Below, in pieces: positions 1 to 15,651 of a DNA stretch of 64,000 bases. Position 1 is the first letter of the stretch. Every line of letters begins with the position of its first letter. This DNA comes from Cylindrotheca closterium (Eukaryota; Bacillariophyta; Bacillariophyceae; Bacillariales; Bacillariaceae): positions 48,301 through 112,300 of the forward strand of contig CAKOGP040002447.1 in assembly GCA_933822405.4 (NCBI GenBank). The letters run 5' to 3'. The position numbers and the translations under genes were made by a program. The notes below the pieces were generated by a model. The model did no database searches. It was not told the DNA's origin and saw nothing but the letters and a program-made list of their open reading frames with translations.

Positions 1-751
1 TCTTACAATGTCAAGATATTGACGAGATCTATTGATGAATACGGCAGCAGTCCTCGTTGATCAAGAATGTGATGGTGGCAACGTTGTACGTGGGCACGAA
101 CCTGCGCCACCATGTCCGTCATGCTTGTTGTCAAGCTTGACCATGGTTTTTCATTGGTATACGTGTACGATGAAAGCAGGTATTGTCGGTCTCGAGATTT
201 AGATTTTCGGAACAGTAATTGTGCTGTCTCGAAACTTGAGAAAGTGAAGTTGAGTCGTTGAAATGTTTTAGGTTTCCAGAACCAAGGGCACACATAGCTA
301 GCTACCTGGTAGTCTAGATAAATATAATAGGTACGGGGTCCGAGATTTGTCCTATCCTGATATAAAACCTGCTCTCGCTTAGAAGTTCCGGAAACACTAG
401 CATGTTCCTTGATTTCTATCTGTAGATGACAATGAGCTTTTGTCAGTCAATGTATTCAGTAGAAGAATTAGATGTACTCTATTTTATAGCCGATTCATGA
501 ATATGTAATGTGGGGAGTAATAAACCATCATCGTGATTTTTCATTCTGTCTGGCACATGAGGAAAACAGAAACCTCATCGCACACAAAATGTCTCTCAGT
601 GTCCAACGGATTTACTCAAGGAATATTACACGGCTTCATATTACCGACAAAACAAATGGATCGTATTTGATTGCGGAAATCCAATAGATCTTCTCTGGAC
701 AATTCGACGAACGCCGCCAGCTGCAAAACTGTCCCTGATGCATACCAAAAT
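1..751. other. Intergenic, no gene recognised
   Basis: I see no convincing gene here. The reading frames are short, have no recognisable motif and have no compatible splice partners. The stretch lies downstream of the membrane-protein gene that ends at 752 on the minus strand, so part of it may be that gene's 3' UTR. Confidence 0.5.
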
Positions 752-1387
752 CTAATCGATAAACTTTGGCTTTGTGACGGACGAAAAGATTCCCACACAT
801 GCGATAACCCCGAGAGCCTTACTGACATTGACATAGACTTCAGGTGAAACTCTAGTCACCTTGTATGTCCCAGCTCCAGCACCCTCAAAACAGGCTTCCC
901 ATGTCAACCCCATGGCAAAGTAGCCACCAACACTCGCCCAAAACGTCAAGAACAAGCCCTTTTGTGGCTGATATGCTCTTCGAAGGGCTGCGGCATTGTT
1001 TTTTGTATCCAAATAGTGCATAATCACTGGAAACAAATGGAACCATAATGCTCGGATATAAACCAAAAGATCTGATCGGCCTTTTGGAGCCAAATCAAAC
1101 TCCATATTCGGATTGGCAATCAATGTCCAAACATACATTACAAATAGGGCATATGCTCCACTCAAACTTGGGCCATGTAGCCAAGGAAGAATTTTTTTTG
1201 ACGACAAAGGTAACTCAAAGTACAGCATGTGCAAGATCCAGGACCACAGCGTCAAGTGTTCTAACACTTGTGCCTGACTTGTATAGATATCCCAGAACAG
1301 AGAGATGAGCATCGCATAGAACTTCCACCGGCGATCCGTTTCGTCTGGAACAGGCTTGTTGTACTTGTCGACATCTCCGCTAGTCAT
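752..1387 (-). CDS. Multi-pass membrane protein, possibly FAR-17a/AIG1-like
   Basis: A single-exon frame of 211 residues with about five hydrophobic segments (roughly residues 24-45, 49-62, 75-95, 112-127 and 145-165) and short charged loops. The order of features resembles the FAR-17a/AIG1/ADTRP family of small membrane proteins, some of which hydrolyse fatty-acid esters of hydroxy fatty acids. There is a Leu-Thr in the second hydrophobic segment (HLTLWSW) and a His followed by a Pro in the fourth (FHLFPVIMHYLD), at about the places of that family's conserved Thr and His. Length is close to the usual 220-240. This assignment rests on pattern alone and could be wrong; membrane localisation is the safe part. 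No signal peptide or plastid motif is seen. Next to it is a DUF6824 gene on the same strand. Confidence 0.6.
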   Translation of the reverse strand: MTSGDVDKYNKPVPDETDRRWKFYAMLISLFWDIYTSQAQVLEHLTLWSWILHMLYFELPLSSKKILPWLHGPSLSGAYALFVMYVWTLIANPNMEFDLAPKGRSDLLVYIRALWFHLFPVIMHYLDTKNNAAALRRAYQPQKGLFLTFWASVGGYFAMGLTWEACFEGAGAGTYKVTRVSPEVYVNVSKALGVIACVGIFSSVTKPKFID

Positions 1388-1651
1388 GGTCTTGTTTGTT
1401 TGGATAGTTCACACTGATGAATATAATAATGCCTGTTATGATGATGATTAGACATCGATGCATGGAATAAAACTCTGTTGCAGGTATATATTTTGGATAG
1501 TGACACCTCAAATGTCTCAGGAGACCGGCTAGCGCTTCAAAAAAAACGGGTTGAAATAAAAACGGGACGGGGAATCCCGTAACGGGACAGTACATATATA
1601 TCGACGACGAGGATATGATGATTTGCTGTTTTGCTATGATAGATGGGCCTT

Positions 1652-3148
1652 TTAGTATAACTGATATGCACTATACCCAACCTTTACGCTGGGTTTAGCA
1701 GTCCGTCGCTTTTGGTCCATCCGCAGCGTGCGAAATGCAGCGCTCACTTTGGTTCTTGCAACACTGTTTTCAACAGTGACCCATACACCATCATCTTCCC
1801 GCAAAAACACTCCAGAATTTTGAGTGATAATAATATCCACAATTTCTTGTGCGATTTTGATTTTCTGTCCTTTCTCCGCTCTAAAATATCTCTCATGATA
1901 CTCCAATACTAGCGATCGCAATGCTCTATTGCCAGCATGATTCTGAATTGGAGATCCTTTGCCAAAGAGAACATCGTGTTCTCCTGGAACGTGAACGATC
2001 CTTCTTCTCGGTTTCGCCCACCTTTCTGCACTACGCTGTGCCAACAGTCTTTGTCTGTGAGCACCAAGGTCTGTAATTTCTCCTCCTTCAGCAATTGGAA
2101 TGATGCCTCGCTCAATACCATGCCCCTGAAGGATTGACATGACTTCCTCATGCGTGCCTATGTACATAATGAGGAATCGGACCAGATGAGCTTCAATATA
2201 CAACATACCAATGAACCATGTTTTCATGTCGTCAACAGCAACGTACCATAGTGGTCTCGTGTCCTGAGCTGCGCCTGAGAATTTAAACCTGCCTTCACCA
2301 TCGAAATATTCTCTCGCTTCAACGTGCCGTCGTGGCAAACGTGAAGTGCGCTCACTCTGATTGGAAGGGATTCTGTGAGCTTTGGGAATTTGTAGTTGCC
2401 ATCAGCCTGACCTCCGATCCCTCTTCCATTGTTAAATGAATATGCAACCAGCACGTATCCTTTTTTCTGAAAATCAGGATCCTGTAGCTCAACCATTGAG
2501 TTGTAAAAAGCACGACGTAGCTACAAATAGACATTAGTATAGCGCGGCACCAAAGTAGTCCTAGTCCCGAGCGACGGGGGCGCTTACCATAGAAATCGTC
2601 GTAGACTTTTTTCCAGCCAGCACAAAGTTAATTGTCCTTCCCGCACGATCTTTGTTCGGAAGGAACCTCCCATATCCACTATACAATGCTTCCATATCAT
2701 CCTTGTCCAAATCATCTTGGGTAATATCCACCACTAGCCTATCTTTCCCAAACAGCTTCAGTTTCAATTGAAAGTGCCGAGCTAGACGAGCCGCTGCTCG
2801 TTTGGCATCGAACACATCGGCACGTAGGAATGCCAACACAAAATCAGGATTGCAGACATAGGTCCTGTCCATTGATACCGCAAGATCGTAAGCTTCTTTT
2901 TCCGTCAGCCTTCCGATTTCGTATTGCACTTGGAGCAAACTTTTATGTACAAGTTCAGGCGTCTCTTTATTCTCATCACTTGAAATTCCATGCACATCCA
3001 GGTATGTCTTTTCTCTGTCCACTGCAGAGATGGATGACATCCGCTTTGCAATCAAGGAGTCGACATATTTGAGATCAGTGGCTTCGGCAGGGATAACTTC
3101 ATGATCATCTACTTTCAAGCTTCTACCTCCTCGATTTTCTCGATGCAT
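1652..3148 (-). CDS. CRAL-TRIO-like / DUF6824 protein, copy 1
   Basis: Three exons, 2588-3148, 2247-2520 and 1652-2157, joined by GT-AG introns of 67 and 89 nt, encode 446 residues in frame. Residues about 85-187 resemble the start of CRAL-TRIO lipid-binding proteins (a helix with FLRADVFDAKRAAARL, then an LFG-containing linker), and exon 2 continues a degenerate CRAL-TRIO-like fold ending in a conserved RTRDHYG. From about residue 338 comes the diatom-rich domain known as DUF6824: HDVLFGKG, then NHAGNRALR, a lysine-rich helix, GVFL, and a final VSAAFRTLR. Its function is unknown; the basic helices suggest nucleic-acid or protein binding, which is inference. It shares both intron positions and phases (0 and 1) with the divergently transcribed gene at 4104-5675, so the pair are duplicates. 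The start follows from alignment with that paralogue. Confidence 0.85.
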
Positions 3149-4103
3149 TTTGTACAGTTGTTGAAGGATTGATGTTGCTCTGTTTCGCTTGCATAAAAAA
3201 TATGCGAAAGTAATTATACTTTTTAAAAATATAACGGAATATAAATTCTATGTGCAACCGAATATACGGGAACGAGTACGTAGTACACGTGTACGTTGAG
3301 CTCTTCTTTTGTTCCCGTCATTTTCTGCGTTTTCGCCGATATATACAGCAGGAGGAGTGAGTCAGTCAGTCAGTCGTTCCGTTCAGTTTCGCGTTTTGGC
3401 TATATAAAAAAATGCATTTATTTTAAAATACATACAATATAATAAACATACTGTACTTCAGTTTCACGTTTGTTTTCAATATGTGTAGAACTCAGATGAC
3501 AGTCTGTACCGTTCAAATGTACCTACAATGGCGAAAATCTCTGCTGCAGTGAGTTTTCATACGCTTCCAACGTCCTAGCTCTATAGTCGTCTGCCAGGCT
3601 GAAGCGATCACATGAGAAGAAATATAACATGTTTCCCATTGTGTACACTTGCTTCCCAATGCGGTAGCCACTTAGCTCGTGGTATAAAAACCAGTGATGT
3701 AGTGAAGAATGATAAGGCTTGCAGGATTTCGTCGAATGGGGCGAGTTTTACAGTCACTAAAGCTAATGGCTAACGTGTATCCAGCTTTGTGTCGGTTCAT
3801 CAACCCTGTACTGCCTCCAACTTGCAGGCACCAGAGCAGTAGGAAGATGATTGATTGATTCGTTCATTTTTATTCGATCTTGGAAGAATATGACGCGCCC
3901 GCAGAGTCGTTTTCCACAATTTTCATTCTGCATGCAGTTTGCATCATATGAGCGCTTTTATATTATTATTTCGAAGCCGCGTGTCAAGGAAGAACTTCGC
4001 TTTTGACGCTCATTATATAACCTTTTTCAATTCACGAACAACGCACATCCACATCATCTTTCCGATCCCGACAAAATACGGCTAACTTCAGTACCGGTAG
4101 ATA
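3149..4103. promoter_or_regulatory. Divergent intergenic region between two DUF6824 paralogues
   Basis: These 955 bp separate the start codons of two divergent paralogues and must hold both promoters. I see a run of TCAGTCAG units at about 3360-3375, a GTAC-rich stretch at about 3278-3297 (containing ACACGTGT) and AT-rich segments near both ends. No reading frame of note is present. No specific promoter element can be proved. Confidence 0.4.
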
Positions 4104-5675
4104 ATGATAGCAATGGAACAGCAACACGCGTTATGCGTTGGAAGCGGAGATGTAACAACAGACATCTTTTCGGGGGAGATTCCTGACATTACTCCAGATC
4201 TCGACAATCAAGCCGAGTCTGCAATCGCAAAGCTAATGTCAGCCTTGTCATCAGAAGCGAGAGAGAAAGCCTACAAGGATATGCACGGGGTGCCTGATGT
4301 TGCGATGGAGTCACCCGAACTCCTTCAGAAGGGACTCGGCCAATTGCAGTTCGAGATTGATAACATCATCGACAAACCTGCTTATAATCAAGCTTTGAAA
4401 CAGGATCCCAACTATGTGTGCGATGAGGAATTTCGCACTCTCTTCTTACGAACTGATGAGATGAATCCAGGATTGGCAGCTCTCAGAATAGTCCGCCACT
4501 TCCAGTTGAAACTGGATCTTTTTGGAAGCGAATGCCTGACAAAGACCATCACGCAAGATGATCTGGACAGAGACGATATGGAAGCATTGTACGCAGGTCG
4601 AGGAAGAGTTCTTCCGTCAAAAGATCGCGCAGGAAGAACCCTGAACTTGTTTATAGTGGGGCAACCTTCTTCAACGCAAGCAATGGTAGGTCAAAATTGA
4701 CCTGGCTTTCTATATACACTACGCAAACAAGAACCAACAAACTCACCTGCCTGACTATCTCATCACGACTTGTTTCTCAGCTTCGACGTTCCTTCTACAA
4801 CATTATGAGCAACCCCCAAGCTACCCAAGGGGGCATTGTGACTATTATCTATGGGGTGGGATGTCAGTCAGTTCCAAATCGAGCGTTTAGTTGGAAGTTC
4901 CCCAAAATTGCGGAAGGACTTCCGGTGCGAATTTCGGCTGTTCACATGTGCCAGAGCAAGTCTCTGTATAGCATGGCTTTTGCTTTCGTCATGATGGCAT
5001 TCGATGCTTTTACTCGGATACGAATCAAAACGCATAGTGGTAAGACTCGTGATCCAATGGGAGGCTCCGACGCGGTGAGACTCTGGGTCCCTCTAACCTT
5101 TTGCTTCAACCTTTTGTGTAGGAACACATGACGAGGTCATGGCAAGTCTCCGGGGATATGGCATAGAACTGGAAAGATTACCTCTCAACCGAGATGGTAA
5201 AATTAGTGACTTGGAAGAGTACCGACAGGGCTTGCTATTACAACGTGCCAGGGAGCGTCTTCAGCATCCGAGAAGAAATAGAATCCATGTCCCATGCATG
5301 TTTGATGTCCTTTTTGGGAAAGGAACTCCGTTCCAAAACCACGTGGGTAACAAAAGGTTCCGTTTGATGGTAACGGAGCAACAGCAGAGGTATACAAAGT
5401 CCGAACGTGGAGAAAAGTTGCAAGTGGCACAGGACATTGTGGACAATGTCATTGAGAACTCTGGGGTGTTCTTGAAACCAGATGGGGAGTCGTGGATAGC
5501 TGTGGAAAATGATGCGGCTCGAGCCAAAGTCAGTGCCACCTTTCGAACCATGCGAAGGACCAATAAGCGTCTACAATCATCGTGCAAGAACTTGCCTAGT
5601 ATTAATAACCGTTTGTCATTGAAAAAATCAGGAGACAACAATGAAGGGTACAATATGAAAGACGCATTCTATTAA
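4104..5675 (+). CDS. CRAL-TRIO-like / DUF6824 protein, copy 2
   Basis: Exons 4104-4685, 4781-5039 and 5122-5675 join through GT-AG introns of 95 and 82 nt into 464 residues. The order matches copy 1: an acidic N-terminus, a CRAL-TRIO N-like helix (LFLRTDEMNPGLAALRIVRH), a linker with ITQDDLDRDDMEALY, a second exon beginning LRRSFYN, and a C-terminal DUF6824 domain with FDVLFGKG, NHVGNKRFR, GVFL and VSATFRTMR. Both introns lie at the same codons and phases as in copy 1, which supports both models. The C-terminal tail is longer and Asn/Lys-rich. The biochemical role is unknown. An upstream Met is possible, but ATG 4104 is the first in frame. Confidence 0.87.
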
Positions 5676-6911: not shown

Positions 6912-7175
6912 GCAAGTCAATCAATACAGTGCGCGATGCCATGCAATGATTATTATTTGTTGTTGTGAATGCGCCCCAATCGGTTTCATGTTCTACGAGT
7001 CATCTATGGTCATTATGTTGACCGCGAGCGCGGGTCCCAACTTTATCCCGCCTGTCATTATTTTTTGAAATCGATGATGATTCATTCGACTCCTTCGACA
7101 ACTGTAGTGTACGCACCACGCATGTATCATCGCACTTCCAGTTTTTCCTCTCTTTGATGAACAATCAAAAACGAA

Positions 7176-8420
7176 ATGAGAAGCTTGTTGCTTCATTTGC
7201 CCTTTGTTTCAATATGCTTCCTCCTATATAGGTCCAACCCAGTTGATGGAGAGAGCCACGACTTGGATCCAGGTACAGCTTGTCAGCACGCTCCTTTGCG
7301 TGAGTTGCCGGATATGAGAATAAGACGTCCACCAAGTAGTCATGAGATTAGCAACAGCAATGTCAATGACAATCATAATGAGGAAATGGAGTCACGTGGT
7401 GGCTTAATCTTCTTTTTGCATGTTCCAAAGACTGGCGGAACTTCGATTCGACGCAACTTTGAAAACTTGGAACATGTGGAATACATCTTTGGTCGAAATT
7501 ATTCAGTTTATTGGAATGAAGCACCGAAAGTCGAAGATTTGATTCAGGGAAAGTCCCTTTTGCAACGCAATCAGAATCGCAAACACAAGAATCGACTGCG
7601 AGCTATCAGTGACGAGGGCAACGAACAAGGAAAGGTTCTATTCTTTGAAGTTCATGCTTCCACAGCTCCATCGTTTTATAACTTGAGACAACGATTGGCC
7701 CGTTGGAGACAAGTCGCCAAGCGGAATCAAGTTCCAGTTTTCTTTTTTACCGTCGTGAGAGATCCAATTGCCTTTGCTATTTCTCATTTCAATTACTTTC
7801 ATGTGGACGTGCGAAACCCCTCCTTTGAACATGTCAATGCGACCCAAGAGAATTTCTTGCGCTTCTCTCTGCACAATCCGCAATGTCAATTTTTGTTCAA
7901 GGGGGAAGCCTCGATGCGGAAGCAACTCAACAAAAGGAAGACAAAGGAAACAAGTGCAAAGTTGGACGATAGCGCCGATTCTGAGAGCTCCAATCCTTTC
8001 AACGCTAGTGCCATCATTTCATCAGACGAATGCTCAAAAGTGCAGGATCAGATGCTAGAATTGTTCGACTGGATTGGAACAACGGAAACCTTGTCCAATG
8101 AGACGCTGCCTCTACTAGCGGATATACTGGGCCGGGATGGGAAGTTTGCAACTTATCGAGTCTCGGACAAAGTGAAAAAAGTGCCAGTCGATTTGTGGGG
8201 GAAAGAACACATGACTGACTTTGGAAGGCAAGTCATTCAAGAACGATCGCAATTAGACTTGGAACTGTACCACCGCATCCAAGAAGAGTATCCCTACTGC
8301 ATGTGGAAGACAAAGGATCCTCAAAGGCAACAGTATCAGCAGTCACCACAAGGCAATGAGAACTACGAACCACAAGGGAACGAGAATTACGAAGACTACG
8401 AAGACTACGAAGAGCTCTGA
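7176..8420 (+). CDS. Secretory-pathway sulfotransferase-like protein
   Basis: A single exon of 414 residues. The first ~25 residues (MRSLLLHLPFVSICFLLY) are a signal peptide or signal anchor. At about residues 78-95, LIFFLHVPKTGGTSIRRNF is the P-loop-like 5'-phosphosulfate binding motif of Golgi carbohydrate sulfotransferases (the V-P-K-T-G/A-G-T-S signature). At about residues 188-205, FFFTVVRDPIAFAISHFNYF is the matching 3'-phosphate binding region (R-D-P, then a Ser/His helix). The family transfers sulfate from PAPS to polysaccharides or glycoproteins in the Golgi lumen; diatoms have many sulfated surface glycans, so a role in glycan sulfation is inferred. The acceptor is unknown. The C-terminus is low-complexity, with repeats of EDYEDYE and a duplicated NENYEPQG-like stretch. 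Confidence 0.85.
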   Translation: MRSLLLHLPFVSICFLLYRSNPVDGESHDLDPGTACQHAPLRELPDMRIRRPPSSHEISNSNVNDNHNEEMESRGGLIFFLHVPKTGGTSIRRNFENLEHVEYIFGRNYSVYWNEAPKVEDLIQGKSLLQRNQNRKHKNRLRAISDEGNEQGKVLFFEVHASTAPSFYNLRQRLARWRQVAKRNQVPVFFFTVVRDPIAFAISHFNYFHVDVRNPSFEHVNATQENFLRFSLHNPQCQFLFKGEASMRKQLNKRKTKETSAKLDDSADSESSNPFNASAIISSDECSKVQDQMLELFDWIGTTETLSNETLPLLADILGRDGKFATYRVSDKVKKVPVDLWGKEHMTDFGRQVIQERSQLDLELYHRIQEEYPYCMWKTKDPQRQQYQQSPQGNENYEPQGNENYEDYEDYEEL

Positions 8421-8521: not shown

Positions 8522-11500
8522 CTATTGTGACATAGACGAGTTCATTTCAGAATACAGAATGTTGAGGTCTCGGTCTTTGTCTTTTCCTTTCATAATTGAT
8601 TTTGGGAAACTCATGGGAGCTGAATTCGATGGATCCTCTTCAATTGCACCAGCCATATTCAATCTTTTGGGTTTGCGCTTGCGGAATCTTCTGAATTTGC
8701 CTCTTTCTTCCTCGTCATCATCTGCCTCGAATTCGACCATGGGCTTTTCATCAAAGCCTTTGTTCATGCTTCCACTCCTTTTAAAATCACGCGATGAAGA
8801 AGTACCGACCCAATAGGTAGTCATTTGACCTTTTCCTTTCACGGCAACCTTGCCACGACGGCGCAAGGGAAAGTCGGGAGCTTGCTCCTTCAAGAGACGT
8901 GCCGATGCATTACTACACTGGATACGATCACTAGTCGAGAGACCTTCCATTCGAGCTGCAGTGTTCATGGTGTCTCCAAAGAGAGCGTATCTTGGGTTCA
9001 GTGACCCAATCACGTTGCTGACAACTGGACCGGAATGAAAGCCGACCCGAATGTGCAAATACCCAGAAGATGGATCATCTTCGTCGATCAAAACATTGCT
9101 TGCCGCTGCGACTGCTTCGACTGCGAACTCTGCAATCTGCTTCACATGGGTAGCGTTTTCATCATGCTCCACTGCATTGGATGAAATCAAAGGGAAACTT
9201 GTTAGCCAAAGTGAAACCACAACAAACTCCGGCCGCACGCAAAATGCCGCATGTACTCACGATTAGTCACTCCAACCCAGGCATCGCCGATCGTCTCGAC
9301 CTTGAATACTCCATGCTTGTTGGCCAATGCGTCAAATGCAACGTACAATCGATCCAACATATTGCAAACCTTCACTGGTGACAGTGCTCGAGAGATGTCA
9401 GTGAAGCGGACAATGTCGCTAAAGAAGACAGTCACATTGTCGTGCGTCTCACTGTTTTACAAGACAAAACAAGAGTTAGTAAAAACAGAATGAAACATGT
9501 GATGAATATGGAAGTTTTCCGTTTCACGAGACTCACGGTTCAACCTTTTGACCGGCTTTGAGCTGATCAGCGACCTTCTTTGGGAAGACCTGGTACAACA
9601 TATCTCCCGAAGCTACCTGTGTACGGAGACGTGTGTTTTGTTTATCAATCAGTGGCTCTGCATCGTTAGCGTTCATGTCGGAAAAGAGCATGTCAAGATC
9701 CTTGGCTTGTGGACGAAAACCATCATTTCGACTCCAGCATTTTGTCATGATCTCTGCCATTCGTTTGGGACATGTATCTGGAACTGTTGGTCGGTAGTTG
9801 ATGCGAGGATCGCAAACCTTGCGAAGGACCTTTCTTGGATGTTGCCCTTCATACGGAATCTTTCGACTATAGATCTCGTAAATGATCATTCCTGAGTAGC
9901 GTCAAGTGAAGAAGAGAAAGAAGAATCAGCAAATGAAAGATTGAATAAAGTATGAATGAAGCCAAGTTCATCCTTACCAAAGGAATAAATGTCACAAGAA
10001 CTGTTGTATTCTTTTTTGCCAGTGAGGTACTCTGGAGCCATCCTGTGGACCACCTGTGTGAGAAAAATTTGCAATTATGCTACAAGTCCCGGAGTTAATG
10101 CTTACCAGAAGGGTGTGCCATGCAGCCCAGGCTTGTTTGTTGCCAAACCAAAGTCAGCAACCTTTGCACGGAATCGTGAATCAATGAGGATGTTCTTCGC
10201 CTTGAGATCGCGATGCAGGATTGGCGGTTTGGATGCATGCAAGAATCGAAGGCCTTGGGCAATGTCTCGAACAATTTGCGTGATGATCTCACCACCAGTG
10301 TACAACGTCTCGTTCCGAAGGAGATCGTATCTGAACATTACAAAGCAACAAAAAGTGGTGAGCCATTTTATGACAGAAAGAAGTCAGTCCTGTGCAGAAG
10401 TCAATCGTTTGTACTTACAAAGACCCATTTTCCATGAATTCCATCACCATCATCTAAAAAATTGGAAAGAGAATTTGATAAGCCATTGCGAGCAGGGAGA
10501 GGCTCTTTACATTTGATCGGTGTTACCAACTTACGGGGTCACTTCCAGTCATTACAGCACCCATTACTGTTGTGATGCCTGTGGGACAAAGCAGAATGTG
10601 TGAGGGCAATCAAATACAGTACCATACGACAACGGTCTATCCATATACTTACATGGATGCCGAAGCCTTGACAAAAGACGCATCTCGGTCCTGAACTCTT
10701 TATGGCGTTTGGCAGTCTCGTCGCACCACGGTAGGAGCTTAGTCTTTATAGATCTTGACGTCGTGCCTCCGGATGCTGTGCCAAGGAGGCTCAAATTGGT
10801 TCTTGTTGCATTAGTGTGAACAAGTCCAGGAAACCACCTTTGCATCCTTGTTTTCTTTTGCGCCATGGGAAAGCCGCCAAACAAGACAGATAGATTCGAG
10901 TCACTCTGAGTGTCTTTACTATTGGTCACGGAGCCAGTTCCTCCATCCACCGAACCTGTGCCTCCATTCTCTTGTCCAAGCTCGGGGTCGCTGCCATTGT
11001 CTTGGGAGTTCTCGTTCGATGCAGCAACAGATACCACAGCACCACCAGACACGCTTGGACGTGAATTAAGCCGCTTGATCTGTGCATTATCTTCCAGAGG
11101 GATAACACGCTTAATTGCTACCTTGGTCCCTCGATATTCTGCTGCAAGTACGACGCCGAACGCCCCTTGTCCAATCACTTCAACTGGATGACTGAGTTCT
11201 AGTTCTTCTGGGTCAACTTGCCAAATCTCATCATTCTTCCTCCTGCGATATGCCAAAAAGCAATAAGCAATTTGGCATGCGATGAGCACCCCAATGGTGG
11301 CTGCGATGGCAGCAAACGTACTGATAGGCACACATTCACTGCCAATCAGCATGGTACTTTCAGAGCATTCGCAAACTCCCATTTCACTCTGTAATACAGA
11401 TAATAGTTTAGTGTCAGCCATCCCGCTTTCAACGTTGAGCAATTACATGGTACTTACTGGAGCCATGCGTTGTCCCGGGTAATCCAAGTCGCAATCTCTG

Positions 11501-13868
11501 TATTCGACGTCTACGCGCACTGGTGAATCAGGGATCTGGATGCCATCAACAAAGATTTCCAATATCGCCACTCCTTTTTCGTTGTGAATGAAACCAAACT
11601 CGTAAACAAATGAATCGATTTTGCTCACAGGCAAATACCATTCGTCTTGACCAATATGAATGAGGGCTTCTAACGAAGCGTTGTGTCGTAACTGGTTGTC
11701 ATGGGCTCGGAATCGGATCTCTTTCGTTTGGGGTACTTCAGCGCAAATGTCCATCTTGTTGCAGCCGGACTGGATCGTCATATTCACTGCGACGTCCTCG
11801 CCATCGATGGTCCACGGATAGATACCAACTGCATGAGCATTGTCAGAGACACACCTTCCAGCAATCAGCAGTGTTCCTGGTGGACAGATGCAGTCCCCTT
11901 GTGCATTCTGAGAAACAATGGAAAGCAAGATCGTTAGTTGGTTGAATCTGCATGGTATTGTAAAGGACATTGGACGCACCGGTATTCTATATTCTCCAGG
12001 GTAGATGACTTCGCAAGCGCTGCTGGTAATCTGAACCTGGACCGGGGATTCTGGAATGTGAACACCATCAATTAATACTTCCAAGATTGCCAACCCAGGT
12101 TCACTCTTTGAAAGCTGGAATTTGTACAAGAACGGTCCAATCCGTGTGACGGGTAACTCGCGAGTGATTGCTCCTAGATAAGCTACGGCTGTGACGATAG
12201 AATCCTCCCTTTCAAGGTTGTCATAGACATGATATGTGAGCTCCTTGTCCTTTTCCACGATACCACAGAGTGACATTTTGCCACAGCCGAGATCAGTACC
12301 AGTTTTCTCGGATGCTTGTTCGCCAGAGTATGGATAGACATTCACTTCATATGCTTGAATGCAAGGACTGCAGTAGCACGAATGGCCTTCCGGACAAGGA
12401 GCCCCAGCCTGTTCACACTGAGTCTCAAAAACTGCTTTTGAAACTTTGTAGTGGCCTGCTGGACAAACGATGCCGCCGTAGAACTCGGCGTTCCGTGCGC
12501 AGTGCAATTTTTCTGTATCAAAACGATTAATGCAGTTAGCGATTAGTACATAACAATCCTCCTGCTGTCCTCACACCACACATACCATTATATTCATCCT
12601 CAACCACAAAGCCTGCCTCTTGCTGCATCGTGCGTACATTAAAGTAAGATCTTGGAGAACGGAAGCCGCTATGAAACCCAGCTATTTCTGCTTCGTAGGC
12701 AAGAGCAGCCATCTCTTGTGTAGTATCGCATCTTGTGTGCGTGTCAAAGTTGACAAGTGGCGTGGACCTGCACAGAGCGGCTTGCTGGTCTGTTCTGGCT
12801 TCGTCTATGCACTCTTGGATCTTCTCCCCGATACTGCCATGGTACTTCATGGCAATCATTGCATTCGCCACTTCCTCCGCTACTAAAGCATCGACAGACT
12901 CTTTTGCTGCCAAGGGCCATTCGGGAAAGACTGGAGTGGAGTGGAGAAACGGAAAGACTTCACCATTCGTCATGATGTTATTTTTTTGTTCGAGTACATT
13001 CAGGAGGCTCACATCCACGATTTTATTCGTAGAGGGATCCAAGGTTTTCTCCACTTGTCCGGTACGTACAAAGCCCACATCCCATCGTCCATCGAGAACT
13101 CCTCGTATCGTCTCTTCATCGTTTCCGGTGAAGACAACCTGCTTTGGATCCGTAATGTAATCCATACCATTCTTTTGCATTTCATAGAACTGTGATTGTG
13201 CACTAGCAAAGTCAGAGAAGGAATGGGCTCCAATGATCTTTCCTTTTAAATCTTCCACACTGTCGATATCTTTCGTGTCCGCGAGGGTGATCATTGCACC
13301 TGTGTTTGGAACGTGTCAGAGAAACATGAGAACCATGTCGAATGTTTGTTTGTCTTTCAAGAATCCACCTGAAAATCATCAGCAATCATCAGTACTCACC
13401 TGATAAAACATCAACCTCGTATTCCCGCCCCCTTGCCTTCAATCTTGCAATAGTCGTAGCCAGAGGCTGAGCCCCAATTTCAAGACCAATGCAACTGTAT
13501 ACCCCGGAATCCGTGTACATAAAGTCAATCTCTTGTTTGAGATCGATCCAATCACGAAGAGGTGTTTCCGTGACTACCATCTTGAACTCGATGGGAGGAT
13601 TCCATCGTTTCCCAACCGCTTCATTTAGATACGATTCGAAAGTCAAGTTGAATTGCTTGTGGGCCAACTCCAAGCCGCTTGTGGCGTGGACTCCGACATA
13701 GTATGTTTGCTTCTGTGTAAGTGGGTCGAATTCTCGGTATTCCTGAGCGCAATTCAGCTCACCCTCAGCCCACAAGTCTTGCTGGGCGTGAGTGGATGAT
13801 TGAATTAGTGTTCCAAGGATCAAGAGGAGGCATATCGTCACTCTTTGTAGCTTCATGTTGAAATCCAT
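8522..13868 (-). CDS. Receptor guanylyl cyclase: PhnD-like sensor, TM, protein kinase, cyclase
   Basis: Twelve exons (13400-13868, 12586-13299, 11980-12512, 11458-11907, 10653-11388, 10535-10578, 10419-10453, 10106-10330, 9978-10042, 9537-9891, 9261-9451, 8522-9171), all with GT-AG introns, give 1488 residues. Order: signal peptide (1-31); a region resembling phosphonate ABC-transporter binding proteins (~35-390; [31 protein letters not shown]); two Cys-rich PCPEGH-type/beta modules (~396-720); one TM (~744-767); a kinase domain (~793-1110) with GQGAFG, Lys815 in [12 protein letters not shown] (Asp1035), DFG (Asp1053) and FWMAPE; and a class III cyclase (~1214-1390) with metal Asp1221 and Asp1265, Glu1261 expected to read guanine, and the Asn1342/Arg1346 pair. 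It probably makes cGMP in response to an external ligand. The position usually Cys in guanylyl cyclases is Ala1335. The alternative upstream Met at 14027 would bury the signal peptide, so 13868 is preferred. Confidence 0.9.
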
Positions 13869-15651
13869 TTCGAGAGTAATGATGGATTGCTTTGTGATTG
13901 TCCAAAAAAACTGAAAAGGTGAGAAACGACGATGTCTTGTTGAGACCATATTTCGATCTGGAATTTTCACGACATTTATTGTGACGTTGAAGAGAACACG
14001 TGCAGGTCCCAGACATCTAACGCCCACTTTCTCTGTTCAGATGGGCACTTTTTCTATTTATGGAAGATGGGTCGGCTTTTGATACCCACAACCTAAAAAT
14101 GCTGACTGCACGCGAGCTGTTCGTACTCCCAAGATTATTAGTCTCGAGCCTTTCGCGCATAAAAACTTCTCCAGAAGCATTGGCAGCAAGCAGGAGATTG
14201 AAGACGATAAGAAGCGGTACCAAGAAGCCCTTCTATGCTCACAGCTGGTCCGAATGACAAGGTGGCGACGGATACAAAAGTACGAAGCACTGCATCAACG
14301 AACCCTTGATACGAGGAAGGCCTCAGAAGGAAAGGTCTATCTAGTACTTTACATCCGTGAGCCGCGGCACGTGCCTACTCTACAGTAAAGTGCCTGCTGG
14401 TACTATTCAAAACTCTTCCACCAGTTTAGATAAGAGTTCAGCAGCAGCTTCATGAAGCTACTACTACCTTGCTGCTATGGAGTCGAAGGGACGAGCTGTC
14501 ATCTGTCATTGTTATAACCATCGTACCTGCTCCTATCGCCAGCTAAATCAAAAGTTGGTGCATTCATTCATTCAATCCTCCTAAAATATGTTCGGAATCG
14601 TCTTCGAATACCGTGTACAGTAGGCGGGGAGGGTACGAGTACCAGGTACCATGGTACGATATGTTGTCAAGGCCATTCTGCACATGCGAAAATGGCTTGT
14701 ATACCGCCCCTTGGTTATTGGACAGCAATACCCGAAGTCTTGAAAGTAGTATTATATTGGCTCCTGATCCATACCGGTATTATTGATGGGCGTTGCATTT
14801 TTAAAAAAATCCAATCTCTGTAGTGGCATTTTAATGCCAATAATAAGACCGTGCAAACGGCAATTTTTCGGTGATTTTAGCCTTACCGTATGCTCGAAAG
14901 TAGTTTATTACGACAATTTTTGATTTCGGGACGATGATGAATCAACTGATTCGCATCAACATGCATTCACGATGGGAAGATGATTGACAGCGAAACGGAA
15001 GCCGAAGAAGGTAACTAAGCCGCCTACAACACATACATAATCTGCAATACGTGTACCAGCCACCAGATCAATTGGTTTTACATTTGCAGTCATGCAAGGT
15101 CAGCGAAGTGGTGTGATAGCTATATCGACGAGAAAATGAAACAAGCAACTTCGAAACTACAAAGATGAGGCTCGAAACGACACGACCAAACAGTAACACT
15201 TGAAGGACTCCGTTTCCCTCTTCTTGTGCTATAGAGGTCGAAGTTCTGTTGATTGTTACATTGGAGAACTACTATGATCTCCGTGTTGCCGTGGCAGTTG
15301 CTGATGGCAATTGATGAAGATGTTCTTGATGAGAATTGCGAAGATGACTGCCACTGGGAGAGAGTGGAATGAATTCAAGGAGATGAAGAGTCGTAGGTAT
15401 CGTAGTATAGCCTTGGATGTAGGTCATAGGCCAGCTTTGTTACGTATTCCCTCAGTACTGTAGTATCGGCACATGGTAGTGTTGTCAAAGGTTAGAGTCT
15501 CAGATGCCATTTTGGTTTCAATTTTGGTTTCAATTTTGGTTTCAATTTTGGTTTCAATGTTGGTTTCAATCTACAGTCTTGCTACAATACGCAAAATTCA
15601 ACGAGCCGCCTGGTACACGTGTACCTGGTGTACTTGTACCTGGTACCGCCG
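13869..15651. other. Gene-poor intergenic region
   Basis: I see no supported gene in these 1.8 kb. Short frames at 14017-14257 lack motifs and splice partners. The region includes GTAC-rich palindromic stretches (for example 14630-14660 and 15612-15656) and a 12-bp minisatellite at 15510-15569. Confidence 0.5.
15510..15569. repeat. 12-bp minisatellite, 5 copies
   Basis: Five head-to-tail copies of TTTTGGTTTCAA occupy 15510-15569, the last with one substitution. They sit about 80 bp before the left end of the long-TIR element. An open frame of hydrophobic repeats crosses it but is a by-product of the repeat. Confidence 0.92.

Follow-up and report, generated by a model that had tools for sequence, protein, structure and literature searches.

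Among described systems, the closest in layout to the locus reported here are the animal receptor guanylyl cyclases, exemplified by NPR-A and GC-C, in which an ectodomain, one membrane pass, a kinase domain, a dimerization helix and a class III cyclase follow one another in a single chain. The ectodomain of NPR-A has a type I binding-protein fold. Venus kinase receptors also join a binding-protein-like flytrap to a kinase through one membrane pass; however, they are animal proteins with a tyrosine kinase and no cyclase, and their flytrap is of type I. Here we describe a receptor gene of the diatom Cylindrotheca closterium, located at positions 8522..13868 of the minus strand of a 64,000-nucleotide stretch of the genome assembly (47.6 Mb, 572 contigs), which we call the window and to which all coordinates refer. 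The encoded protein shows the same order of parts as the animal receptors, but it differs from NPR-A in its ectodomain, predicted to adopt a type II binding-protein fold, and in its kinase motifs.

The predicted fold of the diatom sensor, modeled on a relative, is that of the bacterial binding proteins PhnD, PtxB, ArrX, AioX and XAC2383, which are separate proteins, whereas the diatom domain is fused into a receptor. AioX is reported to bind arsenite and ArrX to bind arsenate and phosphate (PMC5908839), and the sensor histidine kinase TtrS likely binds tetrathionate via a PhnD-like domain (PMC5408782). TtrS-type kinases share a sequence signature and the sensor grouping with the diatom receptor, the output of which is, in contrast, a Ser/Thr-type kinase and a cyclase. 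Guanylyl cyclase/phosphodiesterase (GC/PDE) fusions of Seminavis and Pseudo-nitzschia are likewise diatom membrane cyclases, and some members of the family described below also carry a phosphodiesterase; in the accessible parts of the literature, the published fusions are described without a kinase or a binding-protein sensor. No prior description of the present receptor was found in the literature searched, including a search combining diatom, guanylate cyclase and phosphonate, and individual proteins of the family are already deposited in databases under automatic names. To our knowledge, the sensing of dissolved nutrients, bacteria and mates by diatoms is poorly understood, with few ligand-receptor pairs known. 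We consider it fairly probable that the window gene encodes a diatom chemoreceptor, with a bacterial-type sensor outside the cell and a kinase and a guanylyl cyclase inside.

The gene runs from an ATG at 13868 to a stop codon ending at 8522, with 11 GT-AG introns of 63-100 nucleotides each. Splice junctions were picked as GT-AG pairs that keep the reading frame; independent support comes from the public gene model, in which protein P0001 (1484 amino acids (aa), C. closterium, UniRef name guanylate cyclase) is the same chain starting at the fifth-codon Met. The product comprises an extracellular domain, a single transmembrane segment recognized by reading, a kinase-type domain, a dimerization helix and a cyclase. 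Its three Pfam domains all score far above chance, the outer one being placed in PF12974; the kinase N-lobe is separated from the Pfam kinase match by a 120-aa insert, and a filamin match remained below the Pfam cut-off. The features are as follows:

8522..13868, minus strand: whole coding gene, 12 exons, 1488-aa receptor (splice model; matches P0001 apart from the start of the latter at 13856)
13785..13868, minus strand: N-terminal hydrophobic signal-type segment, aa 1-28 (sequence reading of the splice model)
12842..13535, minus strand: sensor, PF12974 (Phosphonate-bd) match at aa 112-309, with intron 13300-13399 inside (Pfam E 1.3e-20; fold of the C. fusiformis relative P0103, 61% identical)
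12914..12955, minus strand: sensor signature of the FPFxHSTxxYPEWP type, in common with bacterial sensor kinases (sequence comparison)
11980..12512, minus strand: exon 3, first Cys-rich and filamin-like stalk module (splice model; resembles the exon 4 module by reading)
11458..11907, minus strand: exon 4, second stalk module, putative filamin-type Ig fold
11251..11322, minus strand: single transmembrane segment, aa about 745-768, ahead of YRRRK (sequence reading)
9695..11190, minus strand: protein kinase domain, tyrosine kinase-like (TKL-like), with introns and the 120-aa insert (Pfam match at aa 945-1156, E 2.4e-50)
11155..11172, minus strand: glycine loop GQGAFG (sequence and alignment)
11110..11121, minus strand: VAIK with the catalytic Lys (Lys in 115 of 118 aligned rows)
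10741..11097, minus strand: fast-evolving insert between beta3 and alphaC (ratio of nonsynonymous to synonymous rates, dN/dS, 0.50)
10192..10215, minus strand: catalytic loop HRDLKAKN (Asp in 104 of 107 rows)
10147..10155, minus strand: DFG motif (Asp in 96 of 99 rows)
8807..9541, minus strand: class III nucleotide cyclase domain, exons 10-12 (Pfam match at aa 1208-1394, E 2.7e-49; best solved match NPR-A)
9295..9297, minus strand: guanine-type specificity Glu of VETIGDAW (sequence and alignment)
8984..8986, minus strand: second purine-specificity position, Ala (Gly in most relatives, Cys in NPR-A; alignment)

An earlier interpretation of this DNA made without database searches, referred to here as the sequence-only reading, had proposed that a single protein combines these parts, which is borne out by the exact agreement of the gene ends, by P0001 and by a transcript-derived relative from MMETSP, P0004 (annotated 'type:complete', 57% identical), which holds sensor, kinase and cyclase in a single open reading frame (ORF). 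A rival explanation is a gene-model artefact, either neighboring genes wrongly fused or bacterial contamination, and such an artefact might be suspected since the model was spliced from sequence alone and a transcript of this very gene was not seen. We regard this as extremely improbable and set it aside: the public model agrees, P0004 and a second transcript-derived relative, P0180, hold the same domains in one ORF, 30 sensor genes of the genome are followed by a cyclase exon at similar spacing, and an intron interrupts the sensor itself. By its sequence, the locus appears to be a real receptor guanylyl cyclase gene, carrying a bacterial-type sensor in one protein.

The kinase motifs through DFG had been called intact in the sequence-only reading, and the window indeed contains the residue set of active kinases (Lys, alphaC Glu, HxD Asp, Asn and DFG Asp). 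Among 50 aligned relatives, the catalytic Lys and the alphaC Glu are conserved in 50/50 each, the HxD Asp in 47/48 and the DFG Asp in 46/46; in the larger alignment of 118 rows, in which Lys and the two Asp residues are conserved as listed above, the alphaC Glu is found in 114/116 (gaps, 0-12 of the 50 and 0-19 of the 118 rows, are excluded from the counts). Odd residues are confined to the rows P0047, P0224, P0231, P0233, P0234, P0235, P0236, P0239 and C457, several of which have no Pfam kinase match and only the last of which was inspected singly. The mention of HRD needs to be narrowed, since this form, although present in the window, is a minority one among relatives, where the middle residue is Arg in 9 and Gly in 88 of 107 and the Asp is the conserved part. 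The statement that animal receptor cyclases lack the HRD Asp holds for NPR-A, the one animal protein compared, which reads HGNLKSSN and DYG where the window reads HRDLKAKN and DFG; the loss of this Asp, typical of the animal-type pseudokinase, is not found in the window.

Between the window gene and another copy carried by this contig (L039, P0002, 90% identical), dN/dS is 0.12 in the kinase C-lobe, compared with 0.50 in the insert, and no replacement is found in 33 N-lobe codons; therefore, the catalytic lobes are under purifying selection. The best-matching solved kinases are CTR1, EGFR, TAK1 and Roco4, all of which are active enzymes. The kinase is probably catalytically competent. An alternative, to which we assign a lower but appreciable probability, is that the domain acts, like its counterpart in animal receptor cyclases, as a regulatory scaffold that binds ATP and passes the signal on to the cyclase while transferring little or no phosphate. 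Several observations weigh against competence and toward such a scaffold: the order of parts is that of NPR-A, which demonstrates that a receptor cyclase can function with a kinase domain devoid of the catalytic Asp; most relatives read HGD rather than HRD; and DFG has been lost in the family member on C457, also of C. closterium, so kinase activity can be lost. A scaffold fits less well with the retention of the Lys, Glu, HxD Asp, Asn and DFG Asp in nearly all 118 rows, with the selection on the catalytic lobes, much weaker on the insert, and with solved matches to active kinases. If the kinase is live, as it appears to be, the receptor offers a natural comparison for the animal kinase domain that lacks the catalytic Asp.

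The cyclase finds its best solved match in NPR-A (E 6.8e-46), in an alignment that takes in the helix ahead of the cyclase. The two metal-binding Asp residues are conserved in 38/40 and 38/39 of the aligned cyclases and the guanine-type Glu in 38/38, and the window carries all three, in agreement with the guanylyl cyclase identity proposed earlier; on this basis, the product is likely cyclic GMP (cGMP). The second purine-specificity position counts against this assignment, as it is Ala in the window, compared with Cys in NPR-A and Gly in cyanobacterial Cya2, a guanylyl cyclase reported to carry a Glu-Gly pair (PMC4215837). Among 39 relatives, this position is occupied by Gly in 28, Ala in 5, Ser in 2, Thr in 2, Cys in 1 and Asn in 1.

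The sensor scores 74.3 bits against PF12974 (curated cut-off 27). Fold prediction, performed on P0103 instead of the window chain, yielded a type II binding-protein fold, PhnD/PtxB-like and fitting PF12974-type structures, with 10-17% identity in structural alignments. A profile of alignment A1 searched against PDB sequences found nothing better than E 0.029 (glutamine-binding protein), and for this reason the fold assignment rests on the Pfam hidden Markov model and the predicted structure. The suggested resemblance to bacterial phosphonate-binding proteins is thus upheld for the domain model and, in the relative, for the fold, but not for kinship, because the nearest bacterial kin found appear to be mostly TtrS-type signaling receptors rather than phosphonate transporters.

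Several comparisons point to this kinship. The FPFxHSTxxYPEWP signature is common to the diatom sensor and its bacterial relatives. Ten bacterial genomes were taken from a scan with patterns derived from alignment A3 (two diatom and four bacterial sensor pieces) and searched with the Pfam model; 30 loci were fetched, ORFs of at least 200 aa were kept, and 21 matched at E 10 or better. A profile of diatom sensors only (33 rows chosen, P0036 dropped for short coverage) scored 94.6-172.4 bits with the 13 ORFs containing ST..[YF]PEW, whereas none of the remaining 8 exceeded 41.4 bits; the number of sensor-type ORFs is not a frequency because the genomes were chosen with sensor-derived patterns. 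Eleven of the 13 are long and two have the size of stand-alone binding proteins. The bacterial sensor loci used further were the best 80 of at least 577 confirmed stretches, and in 62 of their 80 ORFs a domain scan identified PF12974 (62), HATPase_c (29), GGDEF (10), SpoIIE (5) and MCP (3). In a tree of 127 rows, comprising 32 diatom sensors, 86 bacterial sensors (the 80 loci and 6 further ORFs, several of them duplicates of loci) and nine transporter-type rows hand-picked from ORFs without the PEW motif, the diatom sensors form one clade (support 99) on a long stem (0.96), and diatom and bacterial sensors together are split from the transporter-type rows (support 99). The NCBIfam TtrS model is the top binding-protein-type match for 6/7 diatom queries. 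The window sensor is not a TtrS proper, as it reaches 26.5 bits, far under the equivalog cut-off of 750, and has no histidine kinase domain; its score of 21.5 bits with NCBIfam PhnD (cut-off 261.1) bears on equivalog status alone.

This kinship is weakened by the near tie, for the window, between the NCBIfam TtrS model and the phosphate/phosphonate transporter model (2.1e-6 vs 1.2e-5), by the preference of P0103 for the transporter model, by the retrieval of bacterial tree rows with patterns built partly from sensor-type sequences, and by the tree itself, a quick search without bootstrap in which 7/9 transporter rows were flagged as long branches. The same near tie and preference, together with the PF12974 match and the PhnD/PtxB-like predicted fold, are what a phosphorus-nutrient receptor (for phosphate, phosphite or phosphonate) would have in its favor; we consider this unlikely, as the profile scores and the tree group the sensor with TtrS-like sensory domains. 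The label 'phosphonate sensor' is not warranted, since the domain groups with such sensors and not with transport PhnD, and a 'phosphonate receptor' was set aside on the same profile and tree evidence despite the near tie. Nor does the fold reveal the ligand, because TtrS is thought to bind tetrathionate and AioX and ArrX bind arsenic oxyanions. An Arg (31/32 diatom and 86/86 bacterial rows), a Ser-Thr pair (31/32 and 86/86 each) and a Glu-Trp pair (32/32 and 86/86) are near-invariant and may line an anion pocket. The pocket Ser residues of PhnD and AioX were sought by eye without superposing the pockets, and the transport-type pattern was not evident in the window.

The window gene does not stand alone: the C. 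closterium genome contains about 31 PF12974 sensor genes, this one included, and 30 of them have a same-strand cyclase exon 1.2-3.7 kb downstream among the cyclase matches listed. Exon hits within 700 bases were merged, so the count may contain allelic copies or miss members; pairing used all 35 PF12974 hits and 32 cyclase hits on the relevant contigs, from a partial listing of 170 cyclase matches. The 31st gene (L041, C457:97800-102800, at 134-4702) encodes a sensor, a kinase in which DFG reads NIS, HisKA, HATPase_c and a receiver; here the shared front end is joined to a two-component output, and the kinase is probably dead. Sensor, kinase and cyclase occur together in 38 of the first 50 relatives (of 102) in one protein search and in 36/80 proteins in a second, which shares five proteins with the first and contains nine with sensor, kinase and a histidine kinase part. 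A phosphodiesterase is added in P0036, P0206 and P0207 (the first two scanned a second time), and these GC/PDE forms include one in Seminavis. Among named sources, the full set is found in Cylindrotheca, Seminavis, Staurosira (P0220), Attheya (P0193) and a Coscinodiscophyceae species, Sundstroemia setigera (taxid 3005, P0185), extending the architecture to a centric diatom. Partial sets occur in Amphora (P0229, sensor and kinase), Nitzschia (P0050, taxid 2857, histidine kinase form) and Coscinodiscus wailesii (P0231, sensor only by Pfam). No named non-diatom with PF12974 and this kinase was present among the relatives retrieved, many of which are unnamed metagenome proteins.

Comparison with L039 (C565:34300-41800) revealed that the sensor part of the window gene (12650-13850, covering exon 1, intron 1 and the larger part of exon 2) is 97-100% identical, whereas later 150-base steps are 79 to 99% identical and the upstream flank aligns at 49-60%. 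This pattern suggests that the sensor module was recently exchanged or subjected to gene conversion.

In the proposed chemoreceptor, two filamin-like stalk modules would hold the sensor, a type II binding-protein domain of two lobes, outside the cell; this domain most likely goes back to a single capture from bacterial TtrS-like sensors. When the sensor closes around its ligand, most likely a small anionic molecule, a dimer would be rearranged through the lone membrane helix, and the dimerization helix, also present in animal receptor cyclases, would then activate the guanylyl cyclase. The kinase may phosphorylate itself or partner proteins and in this way either add another output or gate the cyclase. 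More tentatively, with a probability we place clearly below even, we propose that a bacterial oxyanion-type sensor, acquired once by an early diatom, gave rise to a superfamily of chemoreceptors spanning the diatoms, in which one sensor-kinase front end serves several outputs (guanylyl cyclase, cyclase-phosphodiesterase and histidine kinase-receiver) and the cyclase-type receptors have two live outputs, phosphorylation and cGMP. The family is a likely instance of a eukaryote having adopted a bacterial sensor and coupled it to interchangeable outputs, and these algae may use it to detect chemicals in the surrounding water. The C. closterium genome alone provides about 31 candidate chemoreceptor genes, with a sensor fold suited to expression and ligand screening.

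A further candidate ligand is a mating cue, with cGMP signaling following as in Seminavis, where a pheromone response has been reported, in both mating types, for 17 guanylate cyclase genes that include 8 GC/PDE fusions (PMC4726125, PMC8027222). The sensor-kinase architecture includes GC/PDE forms, one of them in Seminavis, and yet we give this role of the sensor only a small probability. In silicon-starved C. closterium, a cyclase is reported among strongly changed genes and a TKL kinase as increased, neither attributable to the window gene (PMC7058042).

Other fusions of binding-protein domains were also encountered. The metagenome protein P0240, possibly amoebozoan, combines a PBP_like_2 (PstS-like) domain, EGF, a kinase, a cyclase and a second kinase, and represents a parallel binding-protein receptor cyclase. 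P0063, P0066 and P0082 are metagenome Ser/Thr kinases with PF00496 in precomputed Pfam domains, a different class of kinase and binding-protein fusion. Next to the receptor gene, a 419-aa ORF on the plus strand (7161-8420) ends 102 bases from the receptor stop, tail to tail; it gave no Pfam match at 0.001 and contains HVPKTGGTS, which we take to be sulfotransferase-like. On the other side, at 15464-15600 of the plus strand, lies a small tandem repeat with short in-frame units (VSILVSILVS / FWFQFWFQ).

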